Shown one piece after another: positions 19,306 to 35,573 of a DNA stretch of 64,000 nt. The position numbers were made by a program, and so were the translations under genes. The DNA lies in the NCBI GenBank assembly GCA_902550325.1, contig CACCYT010000003.1, forward strand, positions 1-64,000. The letters run 5' to 3'. The DNA is from an uncultured Bacteroidota bacterium (GTDB lineage Bacteria > Bacteroidota > Bacteroidia > Flavobacteriales > Flavobacteriaceae). Under the pieces are notes generated by a model. It did no database searches. It saw only the letters and a list, made by a program, of their open reading frames with translations, and was not told where the DNA came from. The stretch's first letter is position 1, and each line of letters opens with the position of its first letter.

Positions 19306-19905
19306 ATGCAAATAGACATTCTTTTGTTTTTTTTATTTTCGGCTATTGTTTTGACTGTTAGCCCAGGACCCGATATTGTTTACGTTTTTGTTAAAAGCAG
19401 CTCAGATGGTTATAAGGCAGGAGTCAAGACGGTACTTGGACTGACTAGTGGTCTTTTTTTTCATACCCTTCTTTTAGTTTTTGGCATTTCTGCAATTATT
19501 GATTCTAGTCCATTTATATTTAAATCTATAAAGTTTTTTGGTTCATCTTATTTTTTGATCTTGGCAATACAACTGCTTACTTTTAAAAAAAATCAAGAGA
19601 GCAGGAAAAACCTGACCAAAAATGATTTTTTAACTGGATTGATGATGAATCTGTTAAATCCAAAAGTTACTGTTTTTTTTATAGCTTTTTTCCCCAACTA
19701 TATTTTTCACGACAACTTAAGTGTTGAAATTCAATTTACTGTGCTGGGAATTATTTTTTGGATAATTGCAAATCTGATTTTTTTTATTGTTGTTTTTATT
19801 TCAGATCGTTTTGGTAAAAACATTAAAAAGTATGTAAATAGTAAAAAAATAAAAATAGTAAAGGCTATTTTTTATCTCTTCATTTCAGTTTGGATCATGC
19901 TTTAA
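19306..19905 (+). CDS. LysE/RhtB-family amino-acid exporter
   Basis: Inner-membrane exporter of amino acids or related small molecules, 199 residues with about six hydrophobic segments. Family landmarks: VLTVSPGPDIVYVFVKSSSDGYKAGVKTVLGLTSGLFFHTLLLVFGIS near the start and GLMMNLLNPKVTVFFIAFFPNYI in the middle. Substrate cannot be predicted. It converges with hemJ, overlapping by 11 bp. Confidence 0.92.
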   Translation: MQIDILLFFLFSAIVLTVSPGPDIVYVFVKSSSDGYKAGVKTVLGLTSGLFFHTLLLVFGISAIIDSSPFIFKSIKFFGSSYFLILAIQLLTFKKNQESRKNLTKNDFLTGLMMNLLNPKVTVFFIAFFPNYIFHDNLSVEIQFTVLGIIFWIIANLIFFIVVFISDRFGKNIKKYVNSKKIKIVKAIFYLFISVWIML

Positions 19906-20428
19906 GTTTTTTATACAGTTTTATAAGCAAGAATAGAACTGTTGCTATAATAATAAATACGATGATTGATTTTAGCCAAGATAAGCTTGTTTTTAAAATG
20001 GCTAGAGAAATTAATGAAATTAATAGCAACGTAGCAAACTCGTTGAATAGTCTTAATTTAAAATCACTAAGCAATATATTATTCTCATTGGTCATTTGGT
20101 TTAGGATTTTTTGACAATAAACTGTGTAAGCAATCAGAATAAAAACAAAAACTAGTTTCACCTTCATCCAATCAAGATAGATCAACGTTTTGTTTTCGTG
20201 AAGCATGTAAAGCCCAAAAATCGTTGTTAAAATTAGTGATGGCCACGTAATTATATACATACATCTTTTTGACATCAGTTTGAATTGGTCTTGTAGAATA
20301 CTTTTTTTATTATTTTTATAACTCGCGGATTCTTTAAAGTATATAAACATTCTTCCTACGTAAAAAAGACCAGCAAACCATGAGACAACAGCAATTAGGT
20401 GAATTGTTTTTAAAACTAAATAACTCAT
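19895..20428 (-). CDS. hemJ: Protoporphyrinogen IX oxidase, HemJ type
   Basis: Membrane haem-protein that oxidises protoporphyrinogen IX to protoporphyrin IX, the penultimate step of haem synthesis. The 177-residue protein has four helices and the HemJ N-terminus (KTIHLIAVVSWFAGLFYVGRMFIYF, with the conserved His) and the second block MSKRCMYIITWPSLILTTIFGLYML and WMKVKLVFVFILIAYTVYC. It is the last gene of the hem operon and overlaps hemH by 4 bp (ATGA). No hemG or hemY is seen in the window, so HemJ probably serves this step. Confidence 0.9.
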   Translation of the reverse strand: MSYLVLKTIHLIAVVSWFAGLFYVGRMFIYFKESASYKNNKKSILQDQFKLMSKRCMYIITWPSLILTTIFGLYMLHENKTLIYLDWMKVKLVFVFILIAYTVYCQKILNQMTNENNILLSDFKLRLFNEFATLLLISLISLAILKTSLSWLKSIIVFIIIATVLFLLIKLYKKLKA

Positions 20429-21429
20429 TTTTTAGCCCAAGTGGAAATTAATTTTGCCCAAGAGTCATCATCATTCAAACAAGGCACATAATGATAGTTC
20501 TCTCCACCAGCCTCAATGAACTCTTCTTTACCTTCCATGGCTATTTCTTCTAATGTTTCCAAGCAGTCTGTTACAAATGCTGGTGTAACGATAACTAAAT
20601 TTTTTACTCCTGACTTTGCTAGTCTTGCGAGCTCATCATCAGTGTAGGGTTTTAGCCAAGCTTCATTTGGTAATCTTGATTGAAATGCATCGCTAACTTT
20701 CTTTGGATCAATTTTAAGTTTATTAATTACTGCTTTTGTGGTTTCAAGTACTTGGTGTTTGTAGCAAAATTCATGAGCATCAGATTTTTTATTACAACAA
20801 TCCTTCACTTTGTAGCAATGAGATTTTGTTGGATCAGATATTTTTAAATGGCTGACAGGTATTCCATGATATGAAAAAAGAATATGATCGTAGTTTATAT
20901 TTTTGATCGTATCATTTATTTTATCCGATAGTAGATTTATGTAATTATCATCCTTGTAAAAAGGTTCAATTATTTTGATTTCTAGATTAGGAAAGTGGAG
21001 CTTAGCCTGTTCTTTAACTTTTTCAACCACAGTCTCGTATGAAGACATTGCATAGTGGGGGTAGAGTGGTAGTACGGTAATTTTTTTAACCCCTTTTTTG
21101 TTAAGTTCTTGTAAGCCTTTAAAAATACTTATTGATCCGTAACGCATGGCTAATGCAACAGGAAAATTTACAAGATTTGAAACTTTATCAAATAATCTTC
21201 TTGAAAGAACAATTAAAGGAGAACCTTCTTTCCACCATATTTTTTTATAAGCTTTTGCTGATTTTTTGGGTCTTGTGTTTAAAATAATAACTTTAACAAG
21301 AAACCATCTGAACCAATAGCTTTTACCAATAACTCTTTCATCCATTAAAAATTCGTCTAAATACTTTTTTACATCTTTTACAGATGTACTGTCGGGTGAT
21401 CCCAAATTAATCATTAAAAATCCTTTCAT
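20425..21429 (-). CDS. hemH: Ferrochelatase
   Basis: Inserts Fe2+ into protoporphyrin IX to make protohaem. 334 residues, starting MKGFLMINLGSPDSTSVKDVKKYLDEFLMDERVI as in the family. The active-site His is in HILFSYHGIPVSHL and the conserved Glu in DCLETLEEIAMEGKEEF. The segment SHCYKVKDCCNKKSDAHEFCYKH is rich in Cys, a place where some bacterial ferrochelatases bind an Fe-S cluster; that role is uncertain here. The start is 1 bp from the hemN stop. Confidence 0.96.
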   Translation of the reverse strand: MKGFLMINLGSPDSTSVKDVKKYLDEFLMDERVIGKSYWFRWFLVKVIILNTRPKKSAKAYKKIWWKEGSPLIVLSRRLFDKVSNLVNFPVALAMRYGSISIFKGLQELNKKGVKKITVLPLYPHYAMSSYETVVEKVKEQAKLHFPNLEIKIIEPFYKDDNYINLLSDKINDTIKNINYDHILFSYHGIPVSHLKISDPTKSHCYKVKDCCNKKSDAHEFCYKHQVLETTKAVINKLKIDPKKVSDAFQSRLPNEAWLKPYTDDELARLAKSGVKNLVIVTPAFVTDCLETLEEIAMEGKEEFIEAGGENYHYVPCLNDDDSWAKLISTWAKK

Positions 21430-22806
21430 TTAAATTGTATTTGAATATGTTCCAACTTTTTGTTTTATCAATGGATCAAAACGCATTGCAATATTTCTTG
21501 TAAATAATCTCCCTTTTTCAAAGACACTTAGCTTATTTTTTTCAATCTTAAGTAGTCCATCAAAGATAAAGTCTTCAAATTTCTTTGGATTAAAATCAAT
21601 GATTTCAATGACTTTTTCTTTACTGCAATTATGTTTATTAGCAATTTCATTAATATCAAGATAGTAATTACACATTATTGAGTTAATTGCATCTCTAACA
21701 ATTTTTTGTTCTTTAATTACGGAATACCCCCTGAAAACAGCCAAATTGTTTTTTTCTATCTCAGCAATATATTTTGCAGCATTTTTAATATTTTGACTGT
21801 ATGCAGAGTCAAGTTGTGATATTGATGATGCCCCAAATGCATAAACTTGACCTGTTGTTTCTCTGGTGCAATAACCTTGAAAATTTCTGTGAAGTTGTTT
21901 ATTTTTAAGAGCAATTTCAAACTCATCGCCAGGCTTTGAGAAATGATCCATACCAATAGAAACATAACCTGATTTTATAAACATTTCATACGAATTTTCA
22001 TACATGAGTGCTTTTTCTTTAGAACTAGGAAAGCCAATCTTTTCTAAGATTTTTTGTCTAGGTAATACGGATGGAACGTGGGCATAGGAAAAAGTTACAA
22101 TTCTTTCTGTGTTCAAGTCGATAGCTTTCTCAACAGTTTTTTTAAAACTGTCAACTGTTTGTAAGGGAAGACCGTATACCAAATCAATATTTGTTCCAGT
22201 AAATCCTTCATCTTTAATTTTTTTAATAATATCATCAATAGGAAGTTTTGATGGTTTCCTATTTATTGCATTTAATACATCATCTCTAAAATCTTGAATA
22301 CCGACTGATATTCTGTTAAAACCAAATTTCTTAAGTAATTCAATGTGTCTAAATTCTAAATGAGCTGGATTACACTCTATTGCCATTTCATAGTTTTGAG
22401 AAAAATCAAAAACCTCATATAATTTATTTGTAATTCTTTCAATGTATTTATAAGAAATTGCATTTGGCGTACCTCCTCCCCAATGAATTTGGGTCAATTT
22501 TCTGTTTTTGTTAATTAGTTTTGAAACATAAGTAATTTCCTTGATCACAGCATCCACATATCTTTCCAAGAATGGTTTTGTAAACCCAGACTCAGTTGTA
22601 CATCCACAAAAATGACATATTTGAGGGCAAAATGGAATATGTATGTAAACAGAAATATTCTGCGGGTTTTCATCATTTGATTGAATAATTTTCTTTTCAA
22701 AATCAAAATTTGAAAAATTTTCATCAAAAAAAGTTGCAGGAGGGTAAGAGGTGTATCTGGGTCCTGTTTTGCTATACTTTTTAATTAAGTTCTCATCAAC
22801 TTTCAT
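21430..22806 (-). CDS. hemN: Oxygen-independent coproporphyrinogen III oxidase
   Basis: Radical-SAM enzyme that decarboxylates coproporphyrinogen III to protoporphyrinogen IX without O2. The cluster motif is at residues 60-69 (FCPQICHFCGC: Cys60, Cys64, Cys67 bind the cluster, Cys69 is the extra HemN Cys). GGGTPN, the second-SAM region (RISVGIQDF) and the HemN-specific GMDHFSKPGDEFEIALKNKQLHRNFQGYCT block separate it from HemW. 458 residues. Its ATG overlaps the TGA that would end a frame-corrected hemE. Confidence 0.96.
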   Translation of the reverse strand: MKVDENLIKKYSKTGPRYTSYPPATFFDENFSNFDFEKKIIQSNDENPQNISVYIHIPFCPQICHFCGCTTESGFTKPFLERYVDAVIKEITYVSKLINKNRKLTQIHWGGGTPNAISYKYIERITNKLYEVFDFSQNYEMAIECNPAHLEFRHIELLKKFGFNRISVGIQDFRDDVLNAINRKPSKLPIDDIIKKIKDEGFTGTNIDLVYGLPLQTVDSFKKTVEKAIDLNTERIVTFSYAHVPSVLPRQKILEKIGFPSSKEKALMYENSYEMFIKSGYVSIGMDHFSKPGDEFEIALKNKQLHRNFQGYCTRETTGQVYAFGASSISQLDSAYSQNIKNAAKYIAEIEKNNLAVFRGYSVIKEQKIVRDAINSIMCNYYLDINEIANKHNCSKEKVIEIIDFNPKKFEDFIFDGLLKIEKNKLSVFEKGRLFTRNIAMRFDPLIKQKVGTYSNTI

Positions 22807-22834: not shown

Positions 22835-23821
22835 CTACAGTTTTTTTACTTTTAAATGATCAATATCAGGTAGAAAACCATGTCCAAGATTGAAAATCCA
22901 GTTAGAATTTTTACTGCCAAAATCTCTCAAAGACTCAAGGTATCTTTCTATAAAATCAAATTCATGATAAAAAATTCTTGGGTCCATGTTACCTTGAATA
23001 CCTACACTGCTATCAACTAATTTTCTGCCCTCTAACAACGACATATGCCAGTCTATGCTAACATAGTCACATAAGTCTTTGTTAATATTCTTTAGACCTA
23101 ATGAATAGTCTTTAGGAAAGAAAATTGTTGGACAGTTCAAGTTTTTTGCACTATTTAATATTTTTTTTGAGTATGGAAGGATTAATTCTGTGTACAAATC
23201 GTAGGGGATACTACCACAATATGTTTCAAAAAGTTGAAAACATTGAATTCCGCTTTTAATTTGATTTTCAACATATTCAATTGATGCTTCTGTGATTTGC
23301 TCAATAATTTTGATGCTTTCTTTTCTATTTTTATAAAAATATTTGACAGCATTTTTAAAGCTTTTTTGGTTTTGATTGCCTCTGAACATAAATAAAAATG
23401 TAGTCAATGGTCCTCCACAAAAACCAATCAATGGAGTGTTTTGCTTGTCTTTAACAGTTTGTCGTATATTGTTATATATATATTCCAGCCTTTCAGGATT
23501 AAAATTTAAATTAGGTCTAATTCCTTCTTCAATTGCATTAACAAATTTTGGACCATTATCTGTAAAAATCAAGTCTAATCCAAGTGCATCTGGAATCACC
23601 AATATATCTGAAAATAGAATTGCTGCATCAACCCCTAAATCATCAATGGGTAACATGGTGACTTTTGATGTTAGCTCAGCATCTTTCATCATATCATAAA
23701 ATTTATGAGTTTCTTTGAGTCTCCTGTAGGATGGTAAAATTCTTCCTGCCTGTCTCATGAACCAAACTGGGGGTCTTTCTTCTTGCTTTCCATTAAGAGT
23801 ATTTAAAAAAGTATTATCCAT
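22835..23821 (-). CDS. hemE: Uroporphyrinogen decarboxylase, C-terminus altered by an apparent frameshift
   Basis: Decarboxylates uroporphyrinogen III to coproporphyrinogen III. PPVWFMRQAGRILPSYRRLKE at the start and DAAILFSDILVIPDALG hold the substrate-binding Arg and Asp; LGHGFLPDID is the conserved end. As read, the protein stops at 328 residues right after HLKVKKL. In the next frame, reached by one extra base in a run of seven A (plus-strand T 22841-22847), it would continue TVEWIKNNNWNR and end at a TGA (22803-22805) overlapping the hemN start. This fits both the family C-terminus and the overlapping style of the rest of the operon. The missing tail is short, so activity may survive. Confidence 0.93.
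   Translation of the reverse strand: MDNTFLNTLNGKQEERPPVWFMRQAGRILPSYRRLKETHKFYDMMKDAELTSKVTMLPIDDLGVDAAILFSDILVIPDALGLDLIFTDNGPKFVNAIEEGIRPNLNFNPERLEYIYNNIRQTVKDKQNTPLIGFCGGPLTTFLFMFRGNQNQKSFKNAVKYFYKNRKESIKIIEQITEASIEYVENQIKSGIQCFQLFETYCGSIPYDLYTELILPYSKKILNSAKNLNCPTIFFPKDYSLGLKNINKDLCDYVSIDWHMSLLEGRKLVDSSVGIQGNMDPRIFYHEFDFIERYLESLRDFGSKNSNWIFNLGHGFLPDIDHLKVKKL
22841..22847 (-). other. Homopolymer frameshift site in hemE
   Basis: Seven A on the coding strand (TTTTTTT on the plus strand) at the point where the hemE frame departs from the family C-terminus. One added A, or two removed, restores a frame that ends in the 4-bp ATGA overlap with hemN. Could be an assembly error, natural variation, or slippage at the homopolymer. 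Confidence 0.7.
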
Positions 23822-25106
23822 TTATTATGTTTTTTAGAGCAATCTTATTGGAATTAATTAATTTTTCTATATCATCATTATCCAGTACTGATGATAAAAA
23901 AAGACACTCATACTGAGACGGTGGTAGATAAACACCCAGGTTTAGCATCTCTTTAAAATATTTTGCATATTTATCTACATCTAGAGTCAATGCATCCTCA
24001 TAATTTTCAATTTTTTTTCTTTTAGAGAAAAATAGAGTTAGCATAGAACCTTGTCTTGAAATGTGCGCATCAGTATTTGTTTCAGCAATATTTTTTTTCC
24101 ATCCATCTTCAATTTTTTTTGATATTGCTTCTAGTTTAGTATAAACATCATCATTTAACATATTTAAAATTGTTAGACCTGCTGACATAGCAAGCGGATT
24201 CCCAGACAACGTGCCTGCTTGGTAAACTGGACCATTTGGAGCTAACATATCCATGATTTCTTTTTTACCCCCATACGCACCTACTGGCAACCCTCCTCCA
24301 ATTATTTTACCCAAAGTTGTAATGTCAGGATAAACCTCAAAAATCTGTTGTGCACCACCTTTCGAAACTCTAAATCCAGTCATGACTTCATCAAATATAA
24401 GAACCGACTGGTTTTTATTACACAGATCTCTGAGACCTTGTAAAAAGTTCTCTATTGGTTTTACTAAACCCATGTTACCAGCAATCGGTTCAACGATAAT
24501 TGCTGCAATTTCATCCTGATTCTCGCTAAATAATTTTTCAACTGAATTTATGTCGTTAAAATTTGCAATGAGTGTGTCTTTCGCAATATTTTTTGTAACA
24601 CCAGGACTGTCTGGAAGTCCTAGAGTAACTGCACCTGACCCCGCTTTGATTAAGAAACTATCTCCATGACCATGATAATTGCCTGCAAACTTTATGATTT
24701 TCTCTCTTTTGGTATAGCCCCTAGCTAGACGAATGGCACTCATTGTTGCTTCAGTTCCTGAGTTTACCATTCTTACTTTATCAATCGACGGAACCATATC
24801 AATTATTTTTTTTGCAACTAGGGTTTCTATTTCAGTTGATGCACCATAAGTTGTTCCATTCTTGCTAGCATTAATTACAGAATTAATTATTTCTCTGTTA
24901 GCATGACCAAAAATCAATGGCCCCCAAGATGATACACAATCGATGTATTCATTATCGTCAATATCAATCATTTTACTTCCTTTTCCACTTTTAAAGAAAA
25001 CAGGGTTCATGTTAACACTCTTAAATGCTCTTACAGGCGAATTCACTCCACCAGGAATAAAGGTTTTTGCCTTATCAAATGCTTCTATACTTCTCTTAAA
25101 CTTCAT
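23814..25106 (-). CDS. hemL: Glutamate-1-semialdehyde 2,1-aminomutase
   Basis: PLP enzyme that turns glutamate-1-semialdehyde into 5-aminolevulinate, second step of the C5 route. The PLP Lys is at 267 (TTLGKIIGGGLPVGAYGG); GTEATMSAIRLARGYT, NYHGHGD and FDEVMTGFR complete the class III aminotransferase core, and PGGVNSPVRAF is the HemL N-terminal signature. 430 residues. It overlaps hemB by 11 bp and hemE by 8 bp. Confidence 0.97.
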   Translation of the reverse strand: MKFKRSIEAFDKAKTFIPGGVNSPVRAFKSVNMNPVFFKSGKGSKMIDIDDNEYIDCVSSWGPLIFGHANREIINSVINASKNGTTYGASTEIETLVAKKIIDMVPSIDKVRMVNSGTEATMSAIRLARGYTKREKIIKFAGNYHGHGDSFLIKAGSGAVTLGLPDSPGVTKNIAKDTLIANFNDINSVEKLFSENQDEIAAIIVEPIAGNMGLVKPIENFLQGLRDLCNKNQSVLIFDEVMTGFRVSKGGAQQIFEVYPDITTLGKIIGGGLPVGAYGGKKEIMDMLAPNGPVYQAGTLSGNPLAMSAGLTILNMLNDDVYTKLEAISKKIEDGWKKNIAETNTDAHISRQGSMLTLFFSKRKKIENYEDALTLDVDKYAKYFKEMLNLGVYLPPSQYECLFLSSVLDNDDIEKLINSNKIALKNIING

Positions 25107-26082
25107 TATTTTTTAAAATTTCAGCAATTTCTAACGCATGATAGGTAATTATTGAATTAGCTCCCGCTCTTTTTATTGAGTACATGATTTCCATCATTAC
25201 ACTTTTTTTATCAATATAGTTTTTTTGATCTCCTGCTTTAACCATGGAATATTCACCACTTACATTGTAAGCGATAATGGGTACATTGAACTTGTTTTTC
25301 ACACGGCTAATTATGTCTAGATATGCAAGAGCTGGTTTTATAATAATAGCATCACAACCTTCATTTAAATCTTGCTCAATTTCTCTGATGAACTCAAAAG
25401 AGTTTTTGAAATTCATTTGATAGCTTTTTCTATCACCCATTTTTGGGGAACTTCCAACAGCGTCCCTAAATGGTCCATAAAAAGAGGACGCATACTTTAC
25501 GGAATAAGGAAAAATAGGTATATCAACATATCCGCTCTCATCCAGTTTTTTTCTAATTAATTGTACCCTTCCATCCATCATATCTGAGGGTGCAAGAACA
25601 TCAGCGCCAGATTCTACCAAGATTTTTGACTGTTTTGCTAGTGTTTCAATTGTCAAATCATTATCAACCTCATCGTTAACAATTGTACCGCAATGTCCAT
25701 GTTTTGTATAACTACAATTACAAACATCAGCAATTACTAAAAACTCATCTTTAAATTCCTTTTTAATTTCTTTAATTGCCTTTGGAACTATACTCTTTTG
25801 ATTGCATGATATTTCACCAGAATTGTCCTTTTTTACCGATATACCAAAAACAATAATATTTTTGATCTTCGATTTTAGAAGTTTTTCACAAAGTTTCAAA
25901 GCATTATCAATTGATAGCTGAAATTGTCCAGGTAGTGTCTTAATTTCATTTTTTACTTTTCTTCCTTCACAAATAAATATCGGATAAATTAGGTCGTTCA
26001 CAGATATAGAAACATCCTCTACAAGTTCCCTAACTTTGTTGTTGTATCTTAATCTGCGAAGTCTAGACTCAGGATATTTCAT
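25096..26082 (-). CDS. hemB: Delta-aminolevulinic acid dehydratase (porphobilinogen synthase)
   Basis: Condenses two 5-aminolevulinate molecules to porphobilinogen. The zinc-binding set Cys121, Cys123, Cys131 in DVCNCSYTKHGHCG marks it as a zinc-dependent form. The two active-site lysines are Lys196 in SVKYASSFYGPFRDA and Lys249 in IIIKPALAYLDI. 328 residues. It overlaps hemD by 14 bp. Confidence 0.97.
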   Translation of the reverse strand: MKYPESRLRRLRYNNKVRELVEDVSISVNDLIYPIFICEGRKVKNEIKTLPGQFQLSIDNALKLCEKLLKSKIKNIIVFGISVKKDNSGEISCNQKSIVPKAIKEIKKEFKDEFLVIADVCNCSYTKHGHCGTIVNDEVDNDLTIETLAKQSKILVESGADVLAPSDMMDGRVQLIRKKLDESGYVDIPIFPYSVKYASSFYGPFRDAVGSSPKMGDRKSYQMNFKNSFEFIREIEQDLNEGCDAIIIKPALAYLDIISRVKNKFNVPIIAYNVSGEYSMVKAGDQKNYIDKKSVMMEIMYSIKRAGANSIITYHALEIAEILKNNEV

Positions 26083-26809
26083 AATTATAATTTTTGAGAA
26101 ATTTTAACAAAGATTCACTTATTCCCTCATAAGTCTGCATTTTTGATGTTAGTTCTGGTCTAAAACCATTTTTTTCAATTGCAGCTGAGGTTGTTCTCCC
26201 AATGCTGATTATGTGAAAATCTTTTGGATTGTATAAACAACTGAATGCTTCAAAAGCTGATGGGCTCGAAAAAACTACATAAGGTTTATTTTTTTGTGAA
26301 AGCATTTTAATTTCTTTGGATTCTTTTTTTGTTTTTATTGTCTGATAGAAAACTTCTTTTTTTACCGTACTAAATTTCGAAAGGGAATTATAAAACATAG
26401 GATTGGATAGGGTTCCTTGTACTAATAACGATTTTTTTGATTCTAACACTTTATTGATTTTAAGCTCCTTCGACATTTCCATTGAATAGTTTTTACCACA
26501 AATGTAGGCAGGTTTATACCCCATTTTTATTAACTTATTGGCAGTTTTTTTTCCAATACACACAAAATATTTATTTGACAAATCATATTTTTTTGTATTC
26601 TCATTTTCAAAAAAATACCTTACGCCATTCTTTGATACAAATATTATGCAATCAATTAAATCAAGATTAATTTTAATTTCATTGATTACTGATTTGGTTT
26701 TAATCATTGGAAAATGAAATGTATTTAATCCACTGTCTTTTAGCTTTTGAAATCCAGGTTCGAAATACTCATTTGTCAATATTATATTTATATTACTTTC
26801 TGATTTCAC
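26069..26809 (-). CDS. hemD: Uroporphyrinogen-III synthase
   Basis: Closes hydroxymethylbilane with inversion of ring D to uroporphyrinogen III. The family is poorly conserved; identification rests on the two-lobed pattern (IDCIIFVSKNGVRYFFEN, FVCIGKKTANKLIKMGY, YVVFSSPSAFEAFS, IISIGRTTSAAIEKNGF), length 246, and position between hemC and hemB. It overlaps hemC by 17 bp. Confidence 0.92.
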   Translation of the reverse strand: MKSESNINIILTNEYFEPGFQKLKDSGLNTFHFPMIKTKSVINEIKINLDLIDCIIFVSKNGVRYFFENENTKKYDLSNKYFVCIGKKTANKLIKMGYKPAYICGKNYSMEMSKELKINKVLESKKSLLVQGTLSNPMFYNSLSKFSTVKKEVFYQTIKTKKESKEIKMLSQKNKPYVVFSSPSAFEAFSCLYNPKDFHIISIGRTTSAAIEKNGFRPELTSKMQTYEGISESLLKFLKNYNYEIS

Positions 26810-27725
26810 TATCGATCTTATTAATTATTTGAACTACATCTTTTTTAATGAACTTCTCTGAAAGTTCTTGGCTTAAATTATCAGTAAAATTTTTGGTTGA
26901 TACTATGTCTTTAATACAATCTTTCCCGTCAAGTGATAAAATAATTCCTTTCAAATAAAGTGTATCCCCATCAAAGTATGAGTATGCTCCAATTGGATAA
27001 TTACAGCCACCCCCCATAGTTTTCATAAAGTTTCTTTCATGATTTACACATAGCATGGTTTTACTATGATTTATTTTTTTTACAATCTCTTTAATTCTAT
27101 TATTATTTTTTGAGTGTTCTACAGCTATTGCACCTTGGCCAGGAGCATTTAAAAATTTCTTGTGATTAAAATACTCCGTAATGTGATGGTCTAGATTCAG
27201 TCTTTCAATTCCAGCAGCAGCCATAACCAAAGCATCAAATTCTCCCTTTAACATTTTATTTATTCGAGTGTCTACGTTTCCCCTAATATCCTTAACTGTA
27301 AGTTTAGGGTTGATTTTTAAAAGTTGAGCTTTTCTGCGAAGTGAGGTAGTGCCAATAACCCCATCTTTGCCAAATGAGTCTAGTTTTTTTTTGCTTTTAC
27401 TTATGAAAACATCTTGAGGGTTACCTCTTTCTAAAATTGCAGAGATTTTTAAACGATCATCATTTTCAACTGGTAAATCCTTTAAGCTATGTACTGCAAT
27501 ATCAATTTTTTCTTCGATGATTAGTTGTTGAATTTCTTTTACAAAAAATCCTTTATCTAAATTTCTGTCTAGAGTTTGATTTAGTAAAATATCTCCTTTT
27601 GTTTTTACTTCCTTTATTTCAAACTCTATATTTCTAAAGTTTTTTTTTAACTCAAAAATAACTTTGTTTGTCTGAAAAAGAGCAAGTTTACTTGTTCTGG
27701 TACCTACAATAACTTTATTTTTCAT
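26793..27725 (-). CDS. hemC: Hydroxymethylbilane synthase (porphobilinogen deaminase)
   Basis: Polymerises four porphobilinogens to hydroxymethylbilane. The dipyrromethane cofactor attaches to Cys241 in GGGCNYPIGAY. VGTRTSKLALFQTN, AVHSLKDLP and the DIRGNVDTRINK arginine block that binds substrate carboxylates are intact. 310 residues. It overlaps hemA by 11 bp. Confidence 0.97.
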   Translation of the reverse strand: MKNKVIVGTRTSKLALFQTNKVIFELKKNFRNIEFEIKEVKTKGDILLNQTLDRNLDKGFFVKEIQQLIIEEKIDIAVHSLKDLPVENDDRLKISAILERGNPQDVFISKSKKKLDSFGKDGVIGTTSLRRKAQLLKINPKLTVKDIRGNVDTRINKMLKGEFDALVMAAAGIERLNLDHHITEYFNHKKFLNAPGQGAIAVEHSKNNNRIKEIVKKINHSKTMLCVNHERNFMKTMGGGCNYPIGAYSYFDGDTLYLKGIILSLDGKDCIKDIVSTKNFTDNLSQELSEKFIKKDVVQIINKIDSEIRK

Positions 27726-28977
27726 CCAGAAAAATTTGATTAATTACCTCTAAAGCTTTCTCATCTTTTCCGTTATCACTAGCCTTTTTGATTTTTTTTA
27801 CCAAATTATCAGAGAATTTATCGTAGACTTTTGTGAGTTTAGAGCTTATGTCGGAACTAGTAGCATCTAATGATAGAGTTTTGAGGTTTGAAATAGTTTC
27901 ATTTATAATCAATTCCCTCACTTGTTTTTTTAAGGATAGTATTGATGGTCTCAAAGATCTAGAGTTTGTCCAGTCATCAAATTCTATTAAAAACTCTTCA
28001 ATGTAAAGCTCGGCTTTAATTACCTCTGCTTTTCTCTTTTTATAGTTCTCATTGACGGTGTCTTTTAAATTGTCGATGTTTATAATTTCAATATTTATTA
28101 TATCACTTAAATCATCAGATAAATTCCTTGGAACAGATAGATCTACCAACAAAAGTTTATTTTCTCTGTCTCTTATAATTGGTTTAAGATCTTTTTTTGT
28201 CAATAGTGGACTTTTGGAGCTTGTAGAAAAAATTACAACATCAGAGTTAAAAATTTCTTTCTTGTAATTATCAAACGGAATAGATTCGTAACCTAGTTCA
28301 GAGCAAAAAGAATCTAATTTGCTTTTGGTTCTGTTTGTAATTTTAATTTTACTGATCCCTTTTTGATGAAGGTGTCTGATTGAAAGCTTTGACGTTTCGC
28401 CAAGCCCTACACATAGAAATTTTGAATTTTTAAGGTCGTATTTATTAGTTATTTGTTCAACTGCAGCATAACTAACCGAAACAGCACCTCTTCCAATTTC
28501 AGTATTGGTTCTAATATATTTACCAGTTTCAAGAGATTTTTGGATCATTCTTCCTAAAATTGGACCAAGCATTTTGTGTTTTTTTGAAAAATAATAAGCA
28601 TCTTTTAATTGTTCAACGATTTGGAATTCACCGATTATCATGGATTCAAGCCCTGAAACTAGTCTGAACAAATGATTAGCAACTTTATAAGATCCAGTTA
28701 AATTATTAAGGTGAGGGGATAAGCTATCTTTGTATTTTTTAAATACAACCAATTCTTTAACGATTGAATGAAGAAATTTATTTTCTTGTCCTGTATGGTT
28801 TTCAAATTCAAAATAAATTTCCGTTCTATTACAAGTAGATATGATCATAAGGCCCTCAATACCAAGGACTTTCTTTAGGTAATTATGAAAAACCAATTTC
28901 TCAGAGTTGTCAAAGAAAAAGCGTTCTCTTATATTGAGGGGAGCTATTTTGTAATTGATGCTTATTAAACCGACCAA
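27715..28977 (-). CDS. hemA: Glutamyl-tRNA reductase, first gene of the haem operon
   Basis: Reduces glutamyl-tRNA(Glu) to glutamate-1-semialdehyde with NADPH; usually the rate-limiting, regulated step. Catalytic Cys49 is in ISTCNRTEIYFEF, followed by GLESMIIGEFQIVEQLKDAY, the NADPH domain (CVGLGETSKLSIRHL) and a C-terminal dimerisation helix. 420 residues, full length. The start is TTG at 28977; no ATG is available in frame just upstream. It has the longest upstream gap of the operon, 287 bp, which carries two palindromic operator-like sites at 29067 and 29142. Confidence 0.95.
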   Translation of the reverse strand: MVGLISINYKIAPLNIRERFFFDNSEKLVFHNYLKKVLGIEGLMIISTCNRTEIYFEFENHTGQENKFLHSIVKELVVFKKYKDSLSPHLNNLTGSYKVANHLFRLVSGLESMIIGEFQIVEQLKDAYYFSKKHKMLGPILGRMIQKSLETGKYIRTNTEIGRGAVSVSYAAVEQITNKYDLKNSKFLCVGLGETSKLSIRHLHQKGISKIKITNRTKSKLDSFCSELGYESIPFDNYKKEIFNSDVVIFSTSSKSPLLTKKDLKPIIRDRENKLLLVDLSVPRNLSDDLSDIINIEIINIDNLKDTVNENYKKRKAEVIKAELYIEEFLIEFDDWTNSRSLRPSILSLKKQVRELIINETISNLKTLSLDATSSDISSKLTKVYDKFSDNLVKKIKKASDNGKDEKALEVINQIFLDEK

Positions 28978-29066
28978 CTCTAAATTTTACATGGCAAATT
29001 TCTTCACTGTCAACTGTTAAAAATAACGCAAGAGGTTCTAAAAATATAGGTATGTGCTTTATTAAC

Positions 29067-29089
29067 TAATATATAATCATTCTAAATAA
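29067..29089. promoter_or_regulatory. Operator-like site 2 upstream of hemA
   Basis: Reads on the hemA strand as TTATTTAGA-ATGAT followed by a degenerate right arm. It matches the hemA-proximal partner at 29142 at 19 of 23 positions and has the same left arm as the palindrome at the TonB receptor promoter. Weakest of the three sites. Confidence 0.45.
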
Positions 29090-29141
29090 GAAAAACATGA
29101 ATTTTTCTTTTTTTTTAAATTATAAAAAATACTTTTGAGCT

Positions 29142-29164
29142 TTATTTATAATAGTTCTAAATAA
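29142..29164. promoter_or_regulatory. Operator-like palindrome 1 upstream of hemA
   Basis: Arms TTATTTATA (29142-29150) and TCTAAATAA (29156-29164) around a 5-bp centre; matches the perfect palindrome at 31922 at 18 of 23 positions. It is about 165 bp upstream of the hemA start. Probably bound by a Fur- or DtxR-type metal sensor; the protein is not in the window. Confidence 0.55.
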
Positions 29165-29204
29165 TAAATATCGAATTATTATAATTTTATTCTAGCTCAC
29201 AACG

Positions 29205-29243
29205 AAGAAACTCAAAAAATATATATTTTTTTTGGGTTTCTTT
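29205..29243 (-). terminator. Possible AT-rich terminator after the DCC gene
   Basis: Long stem between AAGAAACTCAAAAAA and its near-complement TTTTTTTGGGTTTCTT, one wobble pair, starting 22 bp after the stop of the gene at 29265. The U tract is inside the stem rather than after it, so it is not a classical terminator. It would separate the receptor operon from hemA. Confidence 0.4.
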
Positions 29244-29264
29244 AATTTATGTTAACAACAAAAT

Positions 29265-29639
29265 TTAAATATCATTATTACTAATCATGCATTGATCATA
29301 CTTCCCAAATATTTTATATCTAGTCTTAGCAACTAGATCGTAAAAAAAGTTTGTAAAAAATAACGGTAGGAGTTTTATTAGTATTTGTATCCAAAATAGT
29401 TTATTTATTTTTTTTAAAATATACAATATCGCCAAGCTTTTTTGATAAACATTTCCAAAAGAATCTACCACTGCTACGGAATCAACATTATATATATTTT
29501 GAAAGTTTTTTTTGATATATTCACTTTCTAAACTGGCTATCTCAAAGATTTTATTTTTATCTTTTTTTATAAGCCATTTTGTGATAGAATTACATAATAC
29601 ACATTTACCGTCAACAATTATAATCTCTTTTTTGCTCAT
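29265..29639 (-). CDS. DCC-family thiol-disulfide oxidoreductase-like protein (DUF393)
   Basis: Small protein of the DCC/YuxK family (DUF393), 124 residues. The motif DGKCVLCNS with Cys13 and Cys16 near the start, and VDSFGNVYQKSLAILYIL in the middle, match the family. A thioredoxin-like redox role has been proposed; none is proved. It follows the TonB receptor by 42 bp on the same strand and may be cotranscribed with it. Confidence 0.85.
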   Translation of the reverse strand: MSKKEIIIVDGKCVLCNSITKWLIKKDKNKIFEIASLESEYIKKNFQNIYNVDSVAVVDSFGNVYQKSLAILYILKKINKLFWIQILIKLLPLFFTNFFYDLVAKTRYKIFGKYDQCMISNNDI

Positions 29640-29681
29640 TATCTAAATGATAGAGACAAAATTAAAGTTTTTAGCTATTTT

Positions 29682-31868
29682 TTAAAATTTATATTCAATC
29701 CCTGTATAAACTCCAAATGGATGACCAGGTCTTAAACCTGCTGGAGCTTTTGAAACTGCATATTTTTTATCTAAAAGATTAAGAATTTTTGATTTTAAGA
29801 ATATGTCTTTTTTGATTCTATATTTCATAGATAAATCCAATATTAAATATGAGCTTATTTCTTCTGTTCCATTTGCCAGTGTGGAAAATTTTCCATTGTA
29901 ACTTGCGTTTAAGTTAATATCAAGTTTAGAAATCCTGTAACTTAAACTAGAGCTGAACTGATGTTTAGGAATGTAAGGTATTTGATCACCATTATTGACC
30001 TCACCCCAAATATCTTGTGTACTGCCAAAGCTTGTTAAAAATTTTGCATCTGTTAGAGTGTATGAAAAGGAAATCGGAATATATTTTGAAATCGAGGTAT
30101 TTAACAGTACTTCAAAACCATTAACTAAAGCTTTACCAGCATTGAAGGGATCCATTTCACCAAATCCACCGGTTGCTGCTAAGTCATTGCCTAACAAATT
30201 GCTATAATCATTTCTATAAGCTATAATCTCACCATTTAATTTTTTTGTAGAAAACCTTATTCCCAATTCAGAATTAACACTTTCCTCTGCTTTTTGGCCA
30301 TCAGAGCTACCTGGTGGCGAATAGCCTTTATGAATTCCACCAAAAACAGATAAATTATTGCTAAATGTGTAGTTGAAACCTACACCTGGAATAAGTACTG
30401 AAACCTTATTTTCTCGTGTTGAAAGATTTTCAATGTTTCTAAGAGGATTTGATTTACCAAAGTCATCTCTTCCCAGCTTGATTGACTCATATCTTAAGCC
30501 AGGGGATATGGTTAAGCCTTTAAATTTATACTTATACATGATATAAGATGCAAATGAATTAGCAAAACTAATTCTATTACCTTGAGATCCCTTTTCGCCA
30601 TAACTTTCTAGTGCCATAAATCCATTATTAATGTTGTAAATATCTTCCCACTGAAACCTGTCTTCCTCATCATAGTGAATTCTTATGCCTAATTCTAAAT
30701 CATTAAATGACTCATTTTTACCATACCAGTGATAATCAATTTTTGTTTGAATTCCTCTAGAAATATATTCTCTGTTGTTTGCTTTAACCTTCAGTGCATT
30801 TTCATAATCTAGTTCACCACTTAAAATTTTTAGATGTTCTGAAAATTGGGAAGGATTTGAAACAACTTTGGAAATTTTTTGTGAATTGTTGTCATGTACT
30901 ACATCATCAAGTTTGTACCAATTTCTTTTAAACCTATTTTCATAGAAATTAGAAGTAATTTTGATTTTTTCATTAACAAAAAGTTCGTGCGTGAGAACAT
31001 ACTGTTTGTGTTCTGCACTCATTTTATCTTTTTCCGAACCAGGATAACGTAAATAAGGATTTTTTTGAAAGTCAGTTTCAGTTAATCCCAAATATGTTTC
31101 ATTTGATATTTCATCATATGTATGGAATTTAAGCTCGAAGCTTTGATCTATATTAGGGGTTTTGGGAACAAATTTAATTTTAGATGTTATTTCATTAATA
31201 TCGAAACCTGTGTTCAAATCATCATTCAGGCTTTTAAATCCATCTGAATTATAATTTAAAATTTCAAACATATATCCAAATTTTTCTGAGCTATTTCCAA
31301 TGTTTGCATGTGTTTGACCTGTCTTGAAGCTTCCAAAACTTGTGCTAATCTTACCTCGAAATTTTTCTGGTATTTCAGTAGAAACAAAATTGATTGCACC
31401 ACCTGTTGTGTAAGGTCCGTATTGTATTTGGCTACTCCCTTTTAATACTTCGATAGCTTGCATTCTGGCAACTGATGGAAAATAATATGCTGATGATGCA
31501 CTATATGGTGCTGGCGATATTAATATACCATCTTCCATAATAGCTATTTTTGAGCTCCTTTCCGGGGAGGTTCCTCTAATGCTGATATTAGGTCGAAGAC
31601 CAAAACCATCCTCTTCATAAAAGTTAATACCAGAAATTTTACTTAAGGCTCTGTTAATATCTGTATAGTCGAATTGAGCAAGTTCTTCTGTTGAGAGATA
31701 ATATGCTGCTCCAGTACGATTCTTGGCAACAAATTTATTACCTAAAATAGTATTTCCTTTGATTATAACTTCATCAAGTGGAATAATTGAGTCGTTAATT
31801 TGTTTTGGTTCTTGAGAATTTAAATTTAGGCAGATTATAAGGGCTAGGGTGTAAATGTAGTGTTTCAT
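29682..31868 (-). CDS. TonB-dependent receptor, FecA-like iron-siderophore type
   Basis: Outer-membrane active transporter, 728 residues. Signal peptide MKHYIYTLALIICLNLNSQ; plug domain with TonB-box region (PLDEVIIKG), ALSKISGINFYEEDGFGLRPNISIRGTSPERSSKIAIMEDG, and IEVLKGSSQIQYGPYTTGGAINFVS; then a 22-strand barrel ending in GVYTGIEYKF with terminal Phe. The PYTTGG and PAP(Y) features are typical of ferric-citrate/FecA-like receptors. Iron as cargo is supported by the divergent FbpABC genes and the operator at its promoter. No carboxypeptidase-like N-terminal domain as in SusC. Confidence 0.93.
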   Translation of the reverse strand: MKHYIYTLALIICLNLNSQEPKQINDSIIPLDEVIIKGNTILGNKFVAKNRTGAAYYLSTEELAQFDYTDINRALSKISGINFYEEDGFGLRPNISIRGTSPERSSKIAIMEDGILISPAPYSASSAYYFPSVARMQAIEVLKGSSQIQYGPYTTGGAINFVSTEIPEKFRGKISTSFGSFKTGQTHANIGNSSEKFGYMFEILNYNSDGFKSLNDDLNTGFDINEITSKIKFVPKTPNIDQSFELKFHTYDEISNETYLGLTETDFQKNPYLRYPGSEKDKMSAEHKQYVLTHELFVNEKIKITSNFYENRFKRNWYKLDDVVHDNNSQKISKVVSNPSQFSEHLKILSGELDYENALKVKANNREYISRGIQTKIDYHWYGKNESFNDLELGIRIHYDEEDRFQWEDIYNINNGFMALESYGEKGSQGNRISFANSFASYIMYKYKFKGLTISPGLRYESIKLGRDDFGKSNPLRNIENLSTRENKVSVLIPGVGFNYTFSNNLSVFGGIHKGYSPPGSSDGQKAEESVNSELGIRFSTKKLNGEIIAYRNDYSNLLGNDLAATGGFGEMDPFNAGKALVNGFEVLLNTSISKYIPISFSYTLTDAKFLTSFGSTQDIWGEVNNGDQIPYIPKHQFSSSLSYRISKLDINLNASYNGKFSTLANGTEEISSYLILDLSMKYRIKKDIFLKSKILNLLDKKYAVSKAPAGLRPGHPFGVYTGIEYKF

Positions 31869-31908
31869 AATTTATGTATTAATTTTCTAGCTCTACATTA
31901 ATTTGATG

Positions 31909-31916
31909 CAAACATA
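31909..31916 (-). promoter_or_regulatory. -7 promoter element for the TonB receptor
   Basis: Minus-strand TATGTTTG is a perfect TAnnTTTG box about 40 bp before the receptor start. The 23-bp palindrome begins 6 bp upstream and covers the place where the -33 element would lie, so a bound protein would block this promoter. Confidence 0.65.
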
Positions 31917-31921
31917 ATAAA

Positions 31922-31944
31922 TTATTTAGATTTAGTCTAAATAA
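31922..31944. promoter_or_regulatory. Perfect 9-5-9 palindromic operator between receptor and iron ABC genes
   Basis: Arms TTATTTAGA (31922-31930) and TCTAAATAA (31936-31944) are perfect inverted repeats around TTTAG. It lies in the divergent region between the TonB receptor (start 31868) and the ferric-iron binding protein (start 31997). The TTAG...CTAA half-sites resemble DtxR/IdeR-type operators more than the classical Fur box. Related sites occur upstream of hemA. Confidence 0.75.
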
Positions 31945-31996
31945 AAATAATTTTTTCTTTTTAACTCATTTTTTTAATTTCGTGCCAAACTTTTTT

Positions 31997-33019
31997 ATGA
32001 AAAAAATAACCTACCTAATATTTATAGCGATCTTTTTTTCTTGCGAATCTAGCAGGGAGGTTGAAGAGGTTAACCTTTACAGTCAAAGACACTATGCTGT
32101 TGATGAGTTACAATATGAAAACTTTACAAAATTGACAGGAATAAAGGTTAATGTAACAAAAGCAAACGCTGATGAGTTAATACAAAGGCTTAAAAACGAG
32201 GGTGATAAAACTGAAGCTGACCTTTTTATAACTGTAGATGTAGGAAAGTTATGGCAAGCAGGAGATATGGGATTATTACAAAAAATCAATAACGATATAA
32301 TAAATCCAAATATTAATCAATCATTACTTGATAAAAATAACTATTGGGTTCCAGTAACATACAGATCAAGGATTTTGGTGTATAGCAATGAAAGAGTCGA
32401 CAAATCCGAGTTATCCTCTTACGAAGATTTGGCAAATGATAAGTGGAAAGATAGAATCTTAGTAAGATCATCATCGAACTCATATAATCAGGCATTAATG
32501 TCTTCATTAGTGGCAAATCTTGGTATTGAAGAAACACAGAAATGGTCTGCGGCAATTGTTAAAAATTTTGCAAGAAATCCGAAAGGAAATGACAGGGATC
32601 AGGTAAAAGCTATAGCCGCTGGTCAAGGCGATGTTGCTATTGTAAACTCGTATTACATAGGTCTTTTACTATCATCTCAAAATGAAGAAGAGTTAAATGC
32701 TGGAAAATCCGTATCTGTTTTTTTTCCCAATCAAGGAGAGAATCAAAGAGGAGCTCACATTAATGTTTCCGGAATTGCATTAACAAAAAATTCAAAAAAC
32801 AAAGAAAACGCAATCAAACTGATTAAATATTTACAAACTGACGAAGCTCAAAAAACATATGTTAATAACACATATGAATATTCAGTTAATCCATCAATAA
32901 GTCCTAATGAGATAGTTCGGGGCTGGGGAGATTTTAAAATGGATGATTTAGACCTAAATCTGTTGGGCTCAAAAAGAGATGAGGCAATTCGTATATTTGA
33001 TAAGTCCGGCTGGAAATAA
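31997..33019 (+). CDS. Ferric-iron ABC transporter binding lipoprotein (FbpA/FutA-like)
   Basis: Captures Fe3+ in the periplasm and hands it to the permease. Start ATG 31997 gives MKKITYLIFIAIFFSCESS with lipobox FFSC, so it is probably membrane-anchored; the GTG at 31982 is less likely. NLYSQRHYAVDELQYENFTKLTGIKV is the characteristic FutA N-terminus, and the later NSYYIGLLL contains the paired Tyr that ligate iron in the family. It is 340 residues. It opens a three-gene operon with permease and ATPase and is divergent from the receptor. Confidence 0.93.
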   Translation: MKKITYLIFIAIFFSCESSREVEEVNLYSQRHYAVDELQYENFTKLTGIKVNVTKANADELIQRLKNEGDKTEADLFITVDVGKLWQAGDMGLLQKINNDIINPNINQSLLDKNNYWVPVTYRSRILVYSNERVDKSELSSYEDLANDKWKDRILVRSSSNSYNQALMSSLVANLGIEETQKWSAAIVKNFARNPKGNDRDQVKAIAAGQGDVAIVNSYYIGLLLSSQNEEELNAGKSVSVFFPNQGENQRGAHINVSGIALTKNSKNKENAIKLIKYLQTDEAQKTYVNNTYEYSVNPSISPNEIVRGWGDFKMDDLDLNLLGSKRDEAIRIFDKSGWK

Positions 33020-33031
33020 ATTATATTCAAA

Positions 33032-34618
33032 TTGAGTTCAAAAAAGAAATTAGTTGTTTTATTACTGATTACTTTAATCCTAACCATTCCAATTATTGTA
33101 CTCATTTTCAGTACTATTGGAACCAACTTAAGTAATTTTAATTATCTGTGGGATTATTTATTAGTTGATTACTCAATAAATACAATTAAGCTTGTATTTA
33201 TGACCATATTTTTTTCTTTGCTTTTTGGGGTTCTTCCTGCATGGTTTGTTAGTACCACTAATTTTAAATTAAAAAAAATATATGATCTTTTACTTTACTT
33301 GCCACTTGCAATACCAACATACATTATGGCTTTTACCTACAGTGATATAGTGAGTTACACAGGTCCAATTCAGAGTTTTTTTAGAAATTATACTCCAAAG
33401 TTTGCTGAAATCATTAATGTGGATTATCTCCAGATTGAATTTCTTTCAATTCTTTTGTCCTTATCCCTGTATCCTTATGTTTATACAACATGTAGAATTG
33501 CATTTTCTAGAATCGGAACATCATACATAAACTTGTCTAAAACATTAGGTTTATCTGAGTTTTCAACATTTTTTAAAATTGCAATACCAATTTCAAGAGC
33601 AGCAATTTTTTCAGGTCTTTTTTTGATTGTTATGGAAGTTTTGAACGAATATGGGGCTGTAAACTATTTTGGAGTAAATACCTATACAAGTGGGATATTT
33701 CGTGCCTGGGGTCCTATGGTTGATATACAGACAGCATCATTACTTGCCGTTTTTTTATTTATCGTTGTAGCACTGTTTTTTATTTTGGAGAGATATGTTA
33801 ATAGTAAATACAAATTTAATTATGCCATAAACACTAGTGTTAGATCTTACTTCCCAAACTCCAAAATCAAATATGTAATCATAAATTTAGTTTGTTTAGT
33901 ACCGATAATTCTGGGTTTTACAATTCCAATTATTCACATGCTAAAAAACATTCTAAAAAAATCCCTAAATCATGATTTTTTCGACGTTTTGAGTTTAACT
34001 GGAAATACAATTTTTGTTTCAATCATTGCAAGTATTTTTATTATTATTTTTTCAATATTAATCCAGTTTATTAATAGAATTTCTAAATCGAGATTGAATA
34101 AAATTTTGGGTGATGTTGTTTCGCTTAGCTATGCTATGCCTGGGGCGGTTATTGGTATTGCACTTATTCTTCTTTTTACAATTGTTGGTAAATTTTTTGA
34201 AACCTTATTTATTGGCTCATTTTTAGTTTTGATTTATGCCTATGTAGTTCGATATATGGCTGTAGGTATTTCACCCATAAAATCAAGTTTTGAAAAACAA
34301 CCTGAATCCATCGATCAAACAGCACAAAGTCTAGGGCTAAAAACGGCTAATCTTCTAAACAAAATTTATATTCCAATTAATCGCTCAGCAATTATAATTG
34401 CTTTTTTATTGTGTTTTGTAGATATAATGAAAGATTTACCATTGACACTCATACTACGTCCATTTAATTTTGATACACTCGCAACTCAAACATATGAATA
34501 TGCAATCGAAGAAATGTTAGCTAGATCTTCTTTATATTCTTTTGCTATTGTATTTTTAGGGACGTTTATGTTAATAATTTTAAAAAATACACTAAATAAA
34601 GAGATCGATGTTTCTTAA
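33032..34618 (+). CDS. Ferric-iron ABC transporter permease, two fused domains (FbpB-like)
   Basis: Inner-membrane permease of 528 residues with two copies of the binding-protein-dependent transport domain, about 60-250 and 320-520, each with an EAA-type loop (SKTLGLSEFSTFFKIAIPISRAAIFSG; AQSLGLKTANLLNKIYIPINRSAII). This duplicated organisation is standard for ferric-iron importers. Start is TTG at 33032, 12 bp after the binding-protein stop. It overlaps the ATPase gene by 11 bp. Confidence 0.92.
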   Translation: MSSKKKLVVLLLITLILTIPIIVLIFSTIGTNLSNFNYLWDYLLVDYSINTIKLVFMTIFFSLLFGVLPAWFVSTTNFKLKKIYDLLLYLPLAIPTYIMAFTYSDIVSYTGPIQSFFRNYTPKFAEIINVDYLQIEFLSILLSLSLYPYVYTTCRIAFSRIGTSYINLSKTLGLSEFSTFFKIAIPISRAAIFSGLFLIVMEVLNEYGAVNYFGVNTYTSGIFRAWGPMVDIQTASLLAVFLFIVVALFFILERYVNSKYKFNYAINTSVRSYFPNSKIKYVIINLVCLVPIILGFTIPIIHMLKNILKKSLNHDFFDVLSLTGNTIFVSIIASIFIIIFSILIQFINRISKSRLNKILGDVVSLSYAMPGAVIGIALILLFTIVGKFFETLFIGSFLVLIYAYVVRYMAVGISPIKSSFEKQPESIDQTAQSLGLKTANLLNKIYIPINRSAIIIAFLLCFVDIMKDLPLTLILRPFNFDTLATQTYEYAIEEMLARSSLYSFAIVFLGTFMLIILKNTLNKEIDVS

Positions 34619-35573
34619 TGTAAAAAACTTAATTAAATCTTACAGTAAATCAAAGCCCATTATTAAGAAGCTTGATTTTTCTGTTAAAAAAGGTGAAATC
34701 ATTTCTTTTATTGGCGAAAGTGGTTCAGGAAAAACAACTTTTTTAAAGTGTTTAGCTGGCTTAGAGAGTACTGATTCAGGACTTATTGAGCTTAATGGAA
34801 GAGTATTAAATGATAAAAATATATTTGTCAATGCTAATGAAAGAAAAATTGGATTTGTATTTCAGGACAATCCTTTATTTCCCCACTTAAATGTAATTGA
34901 AAACATTAAATTTAACTTGACTTCATTTAATCAATCAGAATTTTCCCAAATATTAAAATTGACAGGATTGAATGGCTTGGAAAAAAGATTTCCCCATGAG
35001 TTATCCGGAGGTGAAAAACAAAGGGCATGTATAGCTCGATCACTGATTAGAAAACCAGATCTACTATTATTAGATGAACCATTTAGTAATTTAGACTCAA
35101 ATATTAAAACCAAAATTAGAGAGGAAACTTCCAGAATTATAAAAGAATCAGGGATAACTACAATTTTTGTCACTCACGACATTGCAGATACATTCAACAT
35201 TTCTGATAGAATTTTAATTTTTAAGGCAGGTGTACTCCAACAGTTTGATGAGCCAGTAAAAATGTATTGTAACCCTGTTAATTGCTATTGTGCTGAAGTA
35301 CTTGGAGATTTAAACCAGTTGAATATAAATAATAAAACCTATTACATTAGACCAGAAAATATTTACATTACAAAAGAATCTAGGTACAAAGCAAAAGTGT
35401 TAAAGTCTCAGTTTGTTGGTAAAGAATATAAAATAGGAGCTACTGTCAATGATTACTCGTGGCATTTTTTTCACAATCAACCTTTGAAAAATGATTCTGA
35501 TATATACCTTGACTTTAATAAGAAAGACCTTCTTGAATTTGATTCAAGCTGTAGTACATTTTTCACAAATTAG
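34608..35573 (+). CDS. Ferric-iron ABC transporter ATPase (FbpC-like)
   Basis: Drives the importer. Walker A GESGSGKT at 36-43, Q-loop GFVFQDNPLFPHLNV, signature LSGGEKQRACIARSL, Walker B LLLLDEPFSNLD and H-loop VTHDIADT are all canonical. The last 90 residues are a TOBE-like domain (NKTYYIRPENIYI), common in FbpC. 321 residues. Its start overlaps the permease end, giving tight coupling. Confidence 0.94.
   Translation: MFLNVKNLIKSYSKSKPIIKKLDFSVKKGEIISFIGESGSGKTTFLKCLAGLESTDSGLIELNGRVLNDKNIFVNANERKIGFVFQDNPLFPHLNVIENIKFNLTSFNQSEFSQILKLTGLNGLEKRFPHELSGGEKQRACIARSLIRKPDLLLLDEPFSNLDSNIKTKIREETSRIIKESGITTIFVTHDIADTFNISDRILIFKAGVLQQFDEPVKMYCNPVNCYCAEVLGDLNQLNINNKTYYIRPENIYITKESRYKAKVLKSQFVGKEYKIGATVNDYSWHFFHNQPLKNDSDIYLDFNKKDLLEFDSSCSTFFTN

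Follow-up and report, generated by a model that had tools for sequence, protein, structure and literature searches.

The closest described counterpart of the sites treated here is the Fur box of Riemerella anatipestifer, a member of the same order, Flavobacteriales. That box has been printed as ATTTAGAATTATTCTAAAT and is backed by gel shifts at four promoters (Guo 2017, PMC5609570), and a mutated Fur box derepresses rhuH (PMC11967795). Here we analyse a stretch of 64,000 nucleotides from an uncultured member of the Flavobacteriaceae (contig CACCYT010000003.1; hereafter the window), in which three related 23-mers stand at two loci: one lies between the divergent genes of a TonB-dependent receptor (- strand) and an FbpA-like binding protein (+ strand), and two lie upstream of hemA, the first gene of a nine-gene haem cluster on the - strand. 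We consider it probable that the three sites are the published flavobacterial Fur box, and that the one Fur of this genome, their predicted binder, couples the iron-uptake genes with the haem cluster.

The likeness to R. anatipestifer rests on the box sequence—the core ATTTAGA-N5-TCTAAAT is the same, with iron receptors among the targets—and Fur binding is predicted here, where gel shifts with Fur are available there. Table 5 of that paper holds no hemA, several boxes that it lists agree poorly with the consensus, and its abstract prints the Escherichia coli box instead (PMC5609570). Direct Fur action on haem-synthesis genes is also described for Bacillus thuringiensis; however, that case involves hemH rather than hemA, another phylum, and another box (PMC11988928). 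Among marine and soil heterotrophs the Bacteroidota are a major group; the iron-control literature that we found for them concerns iron and haem uptake, and we met no account of Fur control of hemA in this phylum in the open-access literature searched. A preliminary description of the window knew of no description of this exact site for a C5 haem operon in the group. The operator matches the Fur box of the R. anatipestifer paper (PMC5609570), so only its use at hemA, a conserved haem target, seems undescribed. If the coupling is true, haem production would be tied to iron supply at its first committed step, in streamlined bacteria of the ocean as well as in some of the class at large.

Three related sites and their conservation

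The perfect 9-5-9 inverted repeat and the two related 23-mers to which the preliminary description drew attention hold up in the sequence: the coordinates and arms of the repeat were verified (Table 1), the site at 29142 agrees with that at 31922 in 18 of 23 positions, and the site at 29067 agrees with that at 29142 in 19 of 23. Lone perfect palindromes of this form are not rare in a window of 31% GC, which holds three, two of them unrelated. A set of related sites such as this one is uncommon; four places in the window match at three or fewer mismatches, with a mean of 0.47 and a largest count of 2 in shuffles, and the fourth place, at 59848, looks like chance. When the published R. anatipestifer 19-mer is used, its three best places in the window are these same three sites (2, 3, and 3 mismatches); shuffled windows give a mean of 0.25 places at three or fewer mismatches, with a maximum of 2.

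Within the genus, 23 genomes were sampled; hemA was found in 16, and 15 upstream regions were readable (the box count leaves out L256 and L326, which lie at contig edges, and the weak L333). All 15 have a site with at most three mismatches within 300 bp, and the reversed control has none. Two boxes, at about -188 and -113, occur in 11 of the 15, and the other four have a single box at -108 to -112. This single site corresponds to the 29067 position, which is present in all 15 at 2-3 mismatches; the site that had looked weak is hence the more widely conserved one. Of the 17 regions upstream of the fbpA-like gene that could be read, 14 have a box with 0-1 mismatch at -51 to -67, and in the remaining three a DUF6607 gene has been inserted and the box stands before it. 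The comparison of these intergenic regions in relatives, which had been proposed as a check, thus finds the sites conserved at both loci.

Beyond the genus we compared 80 Flavobacteriales hemA loci and 89 from outside the order. The first set has no duplicates, includes three genomes that give two hemA loci each, and leaves out the weak or partial rows G087, G023:C12, and G179; the second leaves out L334-L336, L341, and L349 (Flavobacteriales or the genome's own) and the second-copy, weak, or partial rows G285:C14, G236:C2, G291, G203 (twice), G183:C23, G316, and G279:C1. A site with three or fewer mismatches lies within about 320 bp of hemA in 39 of the 80 Flavobacteriales loci, with none in the reversed control; a wider set that includes three duplicate pairs and the genus gives 45 of 87. 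Outside the order, such a site occurs at 14 of 89 loci, again with a reversed control of 0. At four or fewer mismatches the count rises to 20, all between 105 and 55 bp ahead of the start codon; the reversed control then has 2 in that interval and 3 anywhere, and shuffles have a mean of 0.27 there, with a maximum of 2.

One Fur was found in the window genome (C2:23288-23647; L056:5768-6217, - strand), with flanking genes read by eye as spoT and purA. The protein scores 84.9 bits on PF01475 against a cut-off of 23.1; the NCBIfam Fur equivalog models are its best, but with 55.1 and 51.4 bits it stays below their cut-offs (220 and 146). Judged by Fur, the nearest named records are a single cell of an uncultured Bacteroidetes (AG-470-E10) and a MAG (Cryomorphaceae MED-G60). 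We predict that the protein binds the three sites. Autoregulation of fur found no support, as no box with three or fewer mismatches lies in the fur locus L056.

The wider use of the box was sampled at 40 loci with sites of two or fewer mismatches in five large relatives, among the matches listed: the listed sites of G023, G033, G031, and G053 together with five one-mismatch sites of G036, with G025 and G048 left out. We retained 54 of the 63 target genes, leaving out nine with a start more than 300 nt away. Among the matches listed, the 54 target proteins include 13 with a TonB plug domain, 8 of AraC type, 4 HemA, 3 FeoA, 2 DUF4856, and 2 DUF6607; at some of the 40 loci, the sites stand at genes without a clear iron link. 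In other members of the genus (L025, L026, L032, L034-L037), genes of DUF4856 and DUF6607 next to the transporter have the same box, which suggests possible iron roles for these unnamed families.

Proposed control of the uptake and haem genes

A -7 element with the consensus TAnnTTTG has been described (PMC9723704). In 23 of 46 non-hem targets, among the matches listed, such an element (TAnnTTYG) falls 13-19 nt after or 22-33 nt before the box centre, compared with a mean of 0.9 and a maximum of 6 for shuffled flanks; in these 23, the box overlaps the predicted promoter or its start. The receptor gene of the window fits this general geometry, as its candidate TATGTTTG stands at 17 nt and the box would cover the spacer and the -33 region; the candidate of the fbpA-like gene, at 42 nt, falls outside it. 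By covering this region, iron-loaded Fur would repress the receptor when iron is plentiful—repression at uptake promoters is what the geometry and established Fur biology together suggest.

For the hem cluster, we propose that iron-loaded Fur would promote haem synthesis when iron is available. The hem sites appear to lie upstream of the probable promoter, and for this reason we lean towards activation, with the balance between activation and repression about even. No clean TAnnTTTG was found near the boxes of hemA in the genus, and the transcription start could not be fixed; two promoter candidates can be named, a TATTTTTA-like block, conserved for the most part, that lies about 30 nt past the centre of the proximal box, and a TTG..TATAAT pair ahead of the distal one. 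In favour of activation, hemA -7 elements outside the order, where seen, are found near the start codon, at -45 to -8 in 15 of 89 loci (shuffled mean 2.3), 4 of the 20 boxed loci there have such an element downstream of the box, and FurA overexpression is reported to activate hemH in Anabaena.

Nearly as credible is the reverse sign at the same Fur box: iron-loaded Fur would repress the hem genes, and the haem enzymes would rise on iron starvation. Repression is the default action of Fur, most genus members carry the two boxes counted above, and in 4/4 loci of relatives the araC -7 element precedes the box, which puts the box in a blocking position. Several further results weigh against the main reading, some of them in favour of repression. 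Only 4 of the 20 boxed loci outside the order have a clean -7 element after the box, at 44-56 nt from its centre, and in 3 of the 20 such an element stands 33-46 nt before the box centre, which is a blocking arrangement. The box of the fbpA-like gene is also upstream of its -7 element, just as at hemA, so activation and repression cannot be told apart by geometry. The hemH1 gene of B. thuringiensis is activated by Fur in plain LB but repressed by it once Fe3+ is added (PMC11988928). Of the 89 loci outside the order, 69 have no box at four or fewer mismatches. The genome-wide motif scan that the preliminary description proposed gave no enrichment: in this AT-rich, 58%-complete genome, three or fewer mismatches are found at 10 places versus 17 in the reversed control, and two or fewer at 2 versus 2. 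Without enrichment such a scan proves nothing alone, and it is conservation that carries the case. Finally, within the order a divergent araC-type gene is present in 33 of the 39 boxed hemA loci; the box occurs in 33 of 35 hemA loci with a divergent araC versus 6 of 45 without one, and is often near the araC start. With the box tied to the divergent araC in this way, it may in many relatives serve araC-hemH rather than hemA. Repression of the hem genes, for its part, is opposed by the hemA -7 elements outside the order, which lie downstream of the box, and by the main text of an R. anatipestifer iron-limitation study, which does not name hemA, hemB, hemH, glutamyl-tRNA reductase, or ferrochelatase.

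The araC-type gene that shares the hemA box is followed by hemH in the loci read that far. We considered the box as an araC element only, and rejected this for the genus, although it may hold for relatives with a divergent araC. The genus has its araC orthologue at another place (19 genomes have one; that of the window genome is at G000:C2:51998-52831), and it is without a box in 18/18 fetched loci, where the best matches have at least four mismatches; the box has therefore stayed with hemA. No araC-type gene adjoins hemA in seven boxed longer loci outside the order, nor in L080, L081, and L140 inside it. The most economical account makes the box a feature of hemA that araC-hemH has come to share within the Flavobacteriales.

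A bolder version of Fur control at hemA, which we hold to be possible but doubtful, makes Fur an ancient class-wide hemA regulator of the Bacteroidia: it would repress uptake and switch on hemA from upstream when iron is available, the boxes of the genus would gate nine genes, and outside the Flavobacteriales hemA would read both Fur and a second regulator at the direct repeat TGACA-N6-TGACA. This repeat, searched as TGAC-N7-TGAC with an 11-bp period, stands upstream of hemA in 61 of the 89 non-Flavobacteriales loci (e.g. L370, L383, L415), mostly about 24-54 bp before the start; shuffles have a mean of 0.5 and a maximum of 3, and the reversed control has 0. It occurs in 1 of 80 Flavobacteriales loci and is absent in the window, and is possibly the operator of an OmpR/PhoB-type regulator at hemA.

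Candidate regulators

Boxes of the wider Fur family are TGATAAT-N-ATTATCA for Fur, TTATAAT-N-ATTATAA for PerR, and TTTAGAA-N3-TTCTAAA for Irr. The flavobacterial box, TTAGAAT-N-ATTCTAA, shares a T at position 2 with the PerR box and comes close to the Irr box. In 88/88 Fur loci, the recognition helix has Asn at the position of Arg61 in Bacillus subtilis Fur and Asn61 in PerR (86 with Leu-Tyr-Asn, 2 with Ile-Tyr-Asn); in B. subtilis, this one residue of helix H4 separates the two boxes (PMC8638851). The H4 asparagine may explain why the box differs from that of E. coli, and since these Fur proteins have a PerR-type recognition residue, targets would probably be missed if the E. coli box were used for scanning.

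The shared asparagine invites the idea of a PerR-like peroxide sensor, with peroxide control of haem synthesis; however, we think this unlikely. In the Fur of the window genome, alignment with Fur structures puts a Glu (VIEF) at what we take to be the peroxide-sensing metal site, for which an Asp is reported in PerR; the metal-site residue looks Fur-type. Many of the box targets are iron-uptake genes, and R. anatipestifer Fur is reported as an iron regulator (PMC5609570, PMC10434265).

Equally improbable, in our view, is an Irr-like logic, in which a haem-responsive protein would act at low iron or haem. The Irr box, or iron control element, of alphaproteobacteria is close in sequence, as compared above, and also has a haem-synthesis target. 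Irr represses on iron depletion, and hemB is repressed by it in Bradyrhizobium (PMC3413700). The Fur of the window genome, however, scores 30.7 and 29.3 bits on Irr models, far under their cut-offs of 150 and 170 and lower than on the Fur models, although all of these scores fall below their cut-offs.

The preliminary description proposed that a single iron-sensing repressor of DtxR/IdeR type reads the sites. The single shared site survives, being common to predicted iron-uptake and haem genes and conserved, but a DtxR/IdeR/MntR-type reader is very improbable. The half-sites do look TTAG..CTAA-like, and a DtxR-type protein is present in 30 of 37 relatives outside the genus; this look is misleading, and we correct the regulator to Fur. 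The search for regulator homologues found Fur but no DtxR domain in the window genome (58% complete). Only 3 of 23 genus genomes have a DtxR-type protein, in each case of about 140 aa; MntR models gave the best match to the one that was scanned, below their cut-offs. Eight genus genomes reach a completeness of at least 82%; among them, Fur and the box of the fbpA-like gene are each present in 8/8 and a DtxR-type protein (about 140 aa) in 1/8, so that seven have Fur and the box without DtxR. No DtxR domain found in the 58%-complete window genome, rarity in the genus, boxes that persist without DtxR, and a published Fur box of the same sequence are together the grounds for rejection. A comparison of motif counts with Fur and DtxR presence across 60 relatives was too confounded, as the three Fur-less genomes outside the genus also have no DtxR.

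Chance palindromes in AT-rich intergenic DNA, to which the unenriched own-genome counts and the two unrelated perfect palindromes might point, can be dismissed almost entirely, because the sites recur across the genus, the order, and the class while the controls stay at or near zero, which already refutes this reading.

Two further observations concern these proteins. The Fur of the window genome has no CxxC pair (ILTDTGDV), which is kept in several more distant relatives (L049-L052, L054, L055); its structural zinc site seems lost. In G003, G015, and G016 (L057-L059), the short DtxR-type protein, which in L059 is nearest MntR models, adjoins a katG-looking gene, a pairing that hints at possible manganese-peroxide control in a few members of the genus.

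Genes and other features of the two loci

The features of both loci are given in Table 1. The hem genes are backed by Pfam and follow the order hemA-C-D-B-L-E-N-H-J from 28977 down to 19895; because neighbouring genes overlap or are separated by at most 28 nt, the whole pathway looks like one operon, and a single promoter region upstream of hemA could set all nine genes. The upstream neighbour of hemA and its two boxes, a DCC1-like gene, runs in the same direction. For the ABC set (31982-35573), the best NCBIfam matches fall below cut-off, and we infer that it moves iron from the adjoining receptor and the Fur box. The -7 candidate of the fbpA-like gene reads TAAATTTG in some members of the genus.

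Table 1. Positions of the boxes, genes, and promoter candidates at the two loci of the window
Feature	Position	Strand	Remarks
Probable Fur box between receptor and binding-protein genes	31922-31944		perfect 9-5-9, TTATTTAGA-TTTAG-TCTAAATAA
Probable distal Fur box of hem cluster	29142-29164		genus counterpart in 11/15
Probable proximal Fur box of hem cluster	29067-29089		degenerate here, 3 mismatches
Candidate -7 element of receptor gene	31909-31916	-	TATGTTTG; starts 17 nt from box centre
Candidate -7 element of fbpA-like gene	31975-31982	+	TAATTTCG; 42 nt from box centre
Terminator-like hairpin	29207-29240	-	between DCC1-like gene and hem boxes; sequence read by eye
DCC1-like gene	29265-29639	-	
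TonB-dependent receptor	29682-31868	-	closest NCBIfam is siderophore receptor, below cut-off
Extracellular solute-binding protein	31982-33019	+	FbpA-like by context; likely start ATG at 31997
ABC permease	33032-34618	+	two transport stretches; FbpB-like by context
ABC ATPase	34608-35573	+	FbpC-like by context
hemA	27715-28977	-	glutamyl-tRNA reductase
hemC	26793-27725	-	
hemD	26069-26809	-	
hemB	25096-26082	-	
hemL	23814-25106	-	class-III aminotransferase in hem context
hemE	22835-23821	-	
hemN	21430-22806	-	radical SAM in hem context
hemH	20425-21429	-	ferrochelatase
hemJ-like	19895-20428	-	UPF0093

Two sequence blocks recur around these genes. One, TATA.TTTTAGA.C.T.T.GCGTTATTT with variants, lies at 29021-29049 of the window (- strand), between the proximal box and hemA and about 30 nt after the box centre; it is largely conserved in 15 members of the genus and could be a promoter or a second site. 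The other, GAGCTAGAA, recurs in close members of the genus at two places, ahead of the distal hem box and close to the receptor start. The HemA of the window shares only 29-33% identity with those of the other family members listed, but three genomes of family f11 reach 55, 41, and 38%; fast divergence, transfer, or a placement issue are candidate readings of this pattern.

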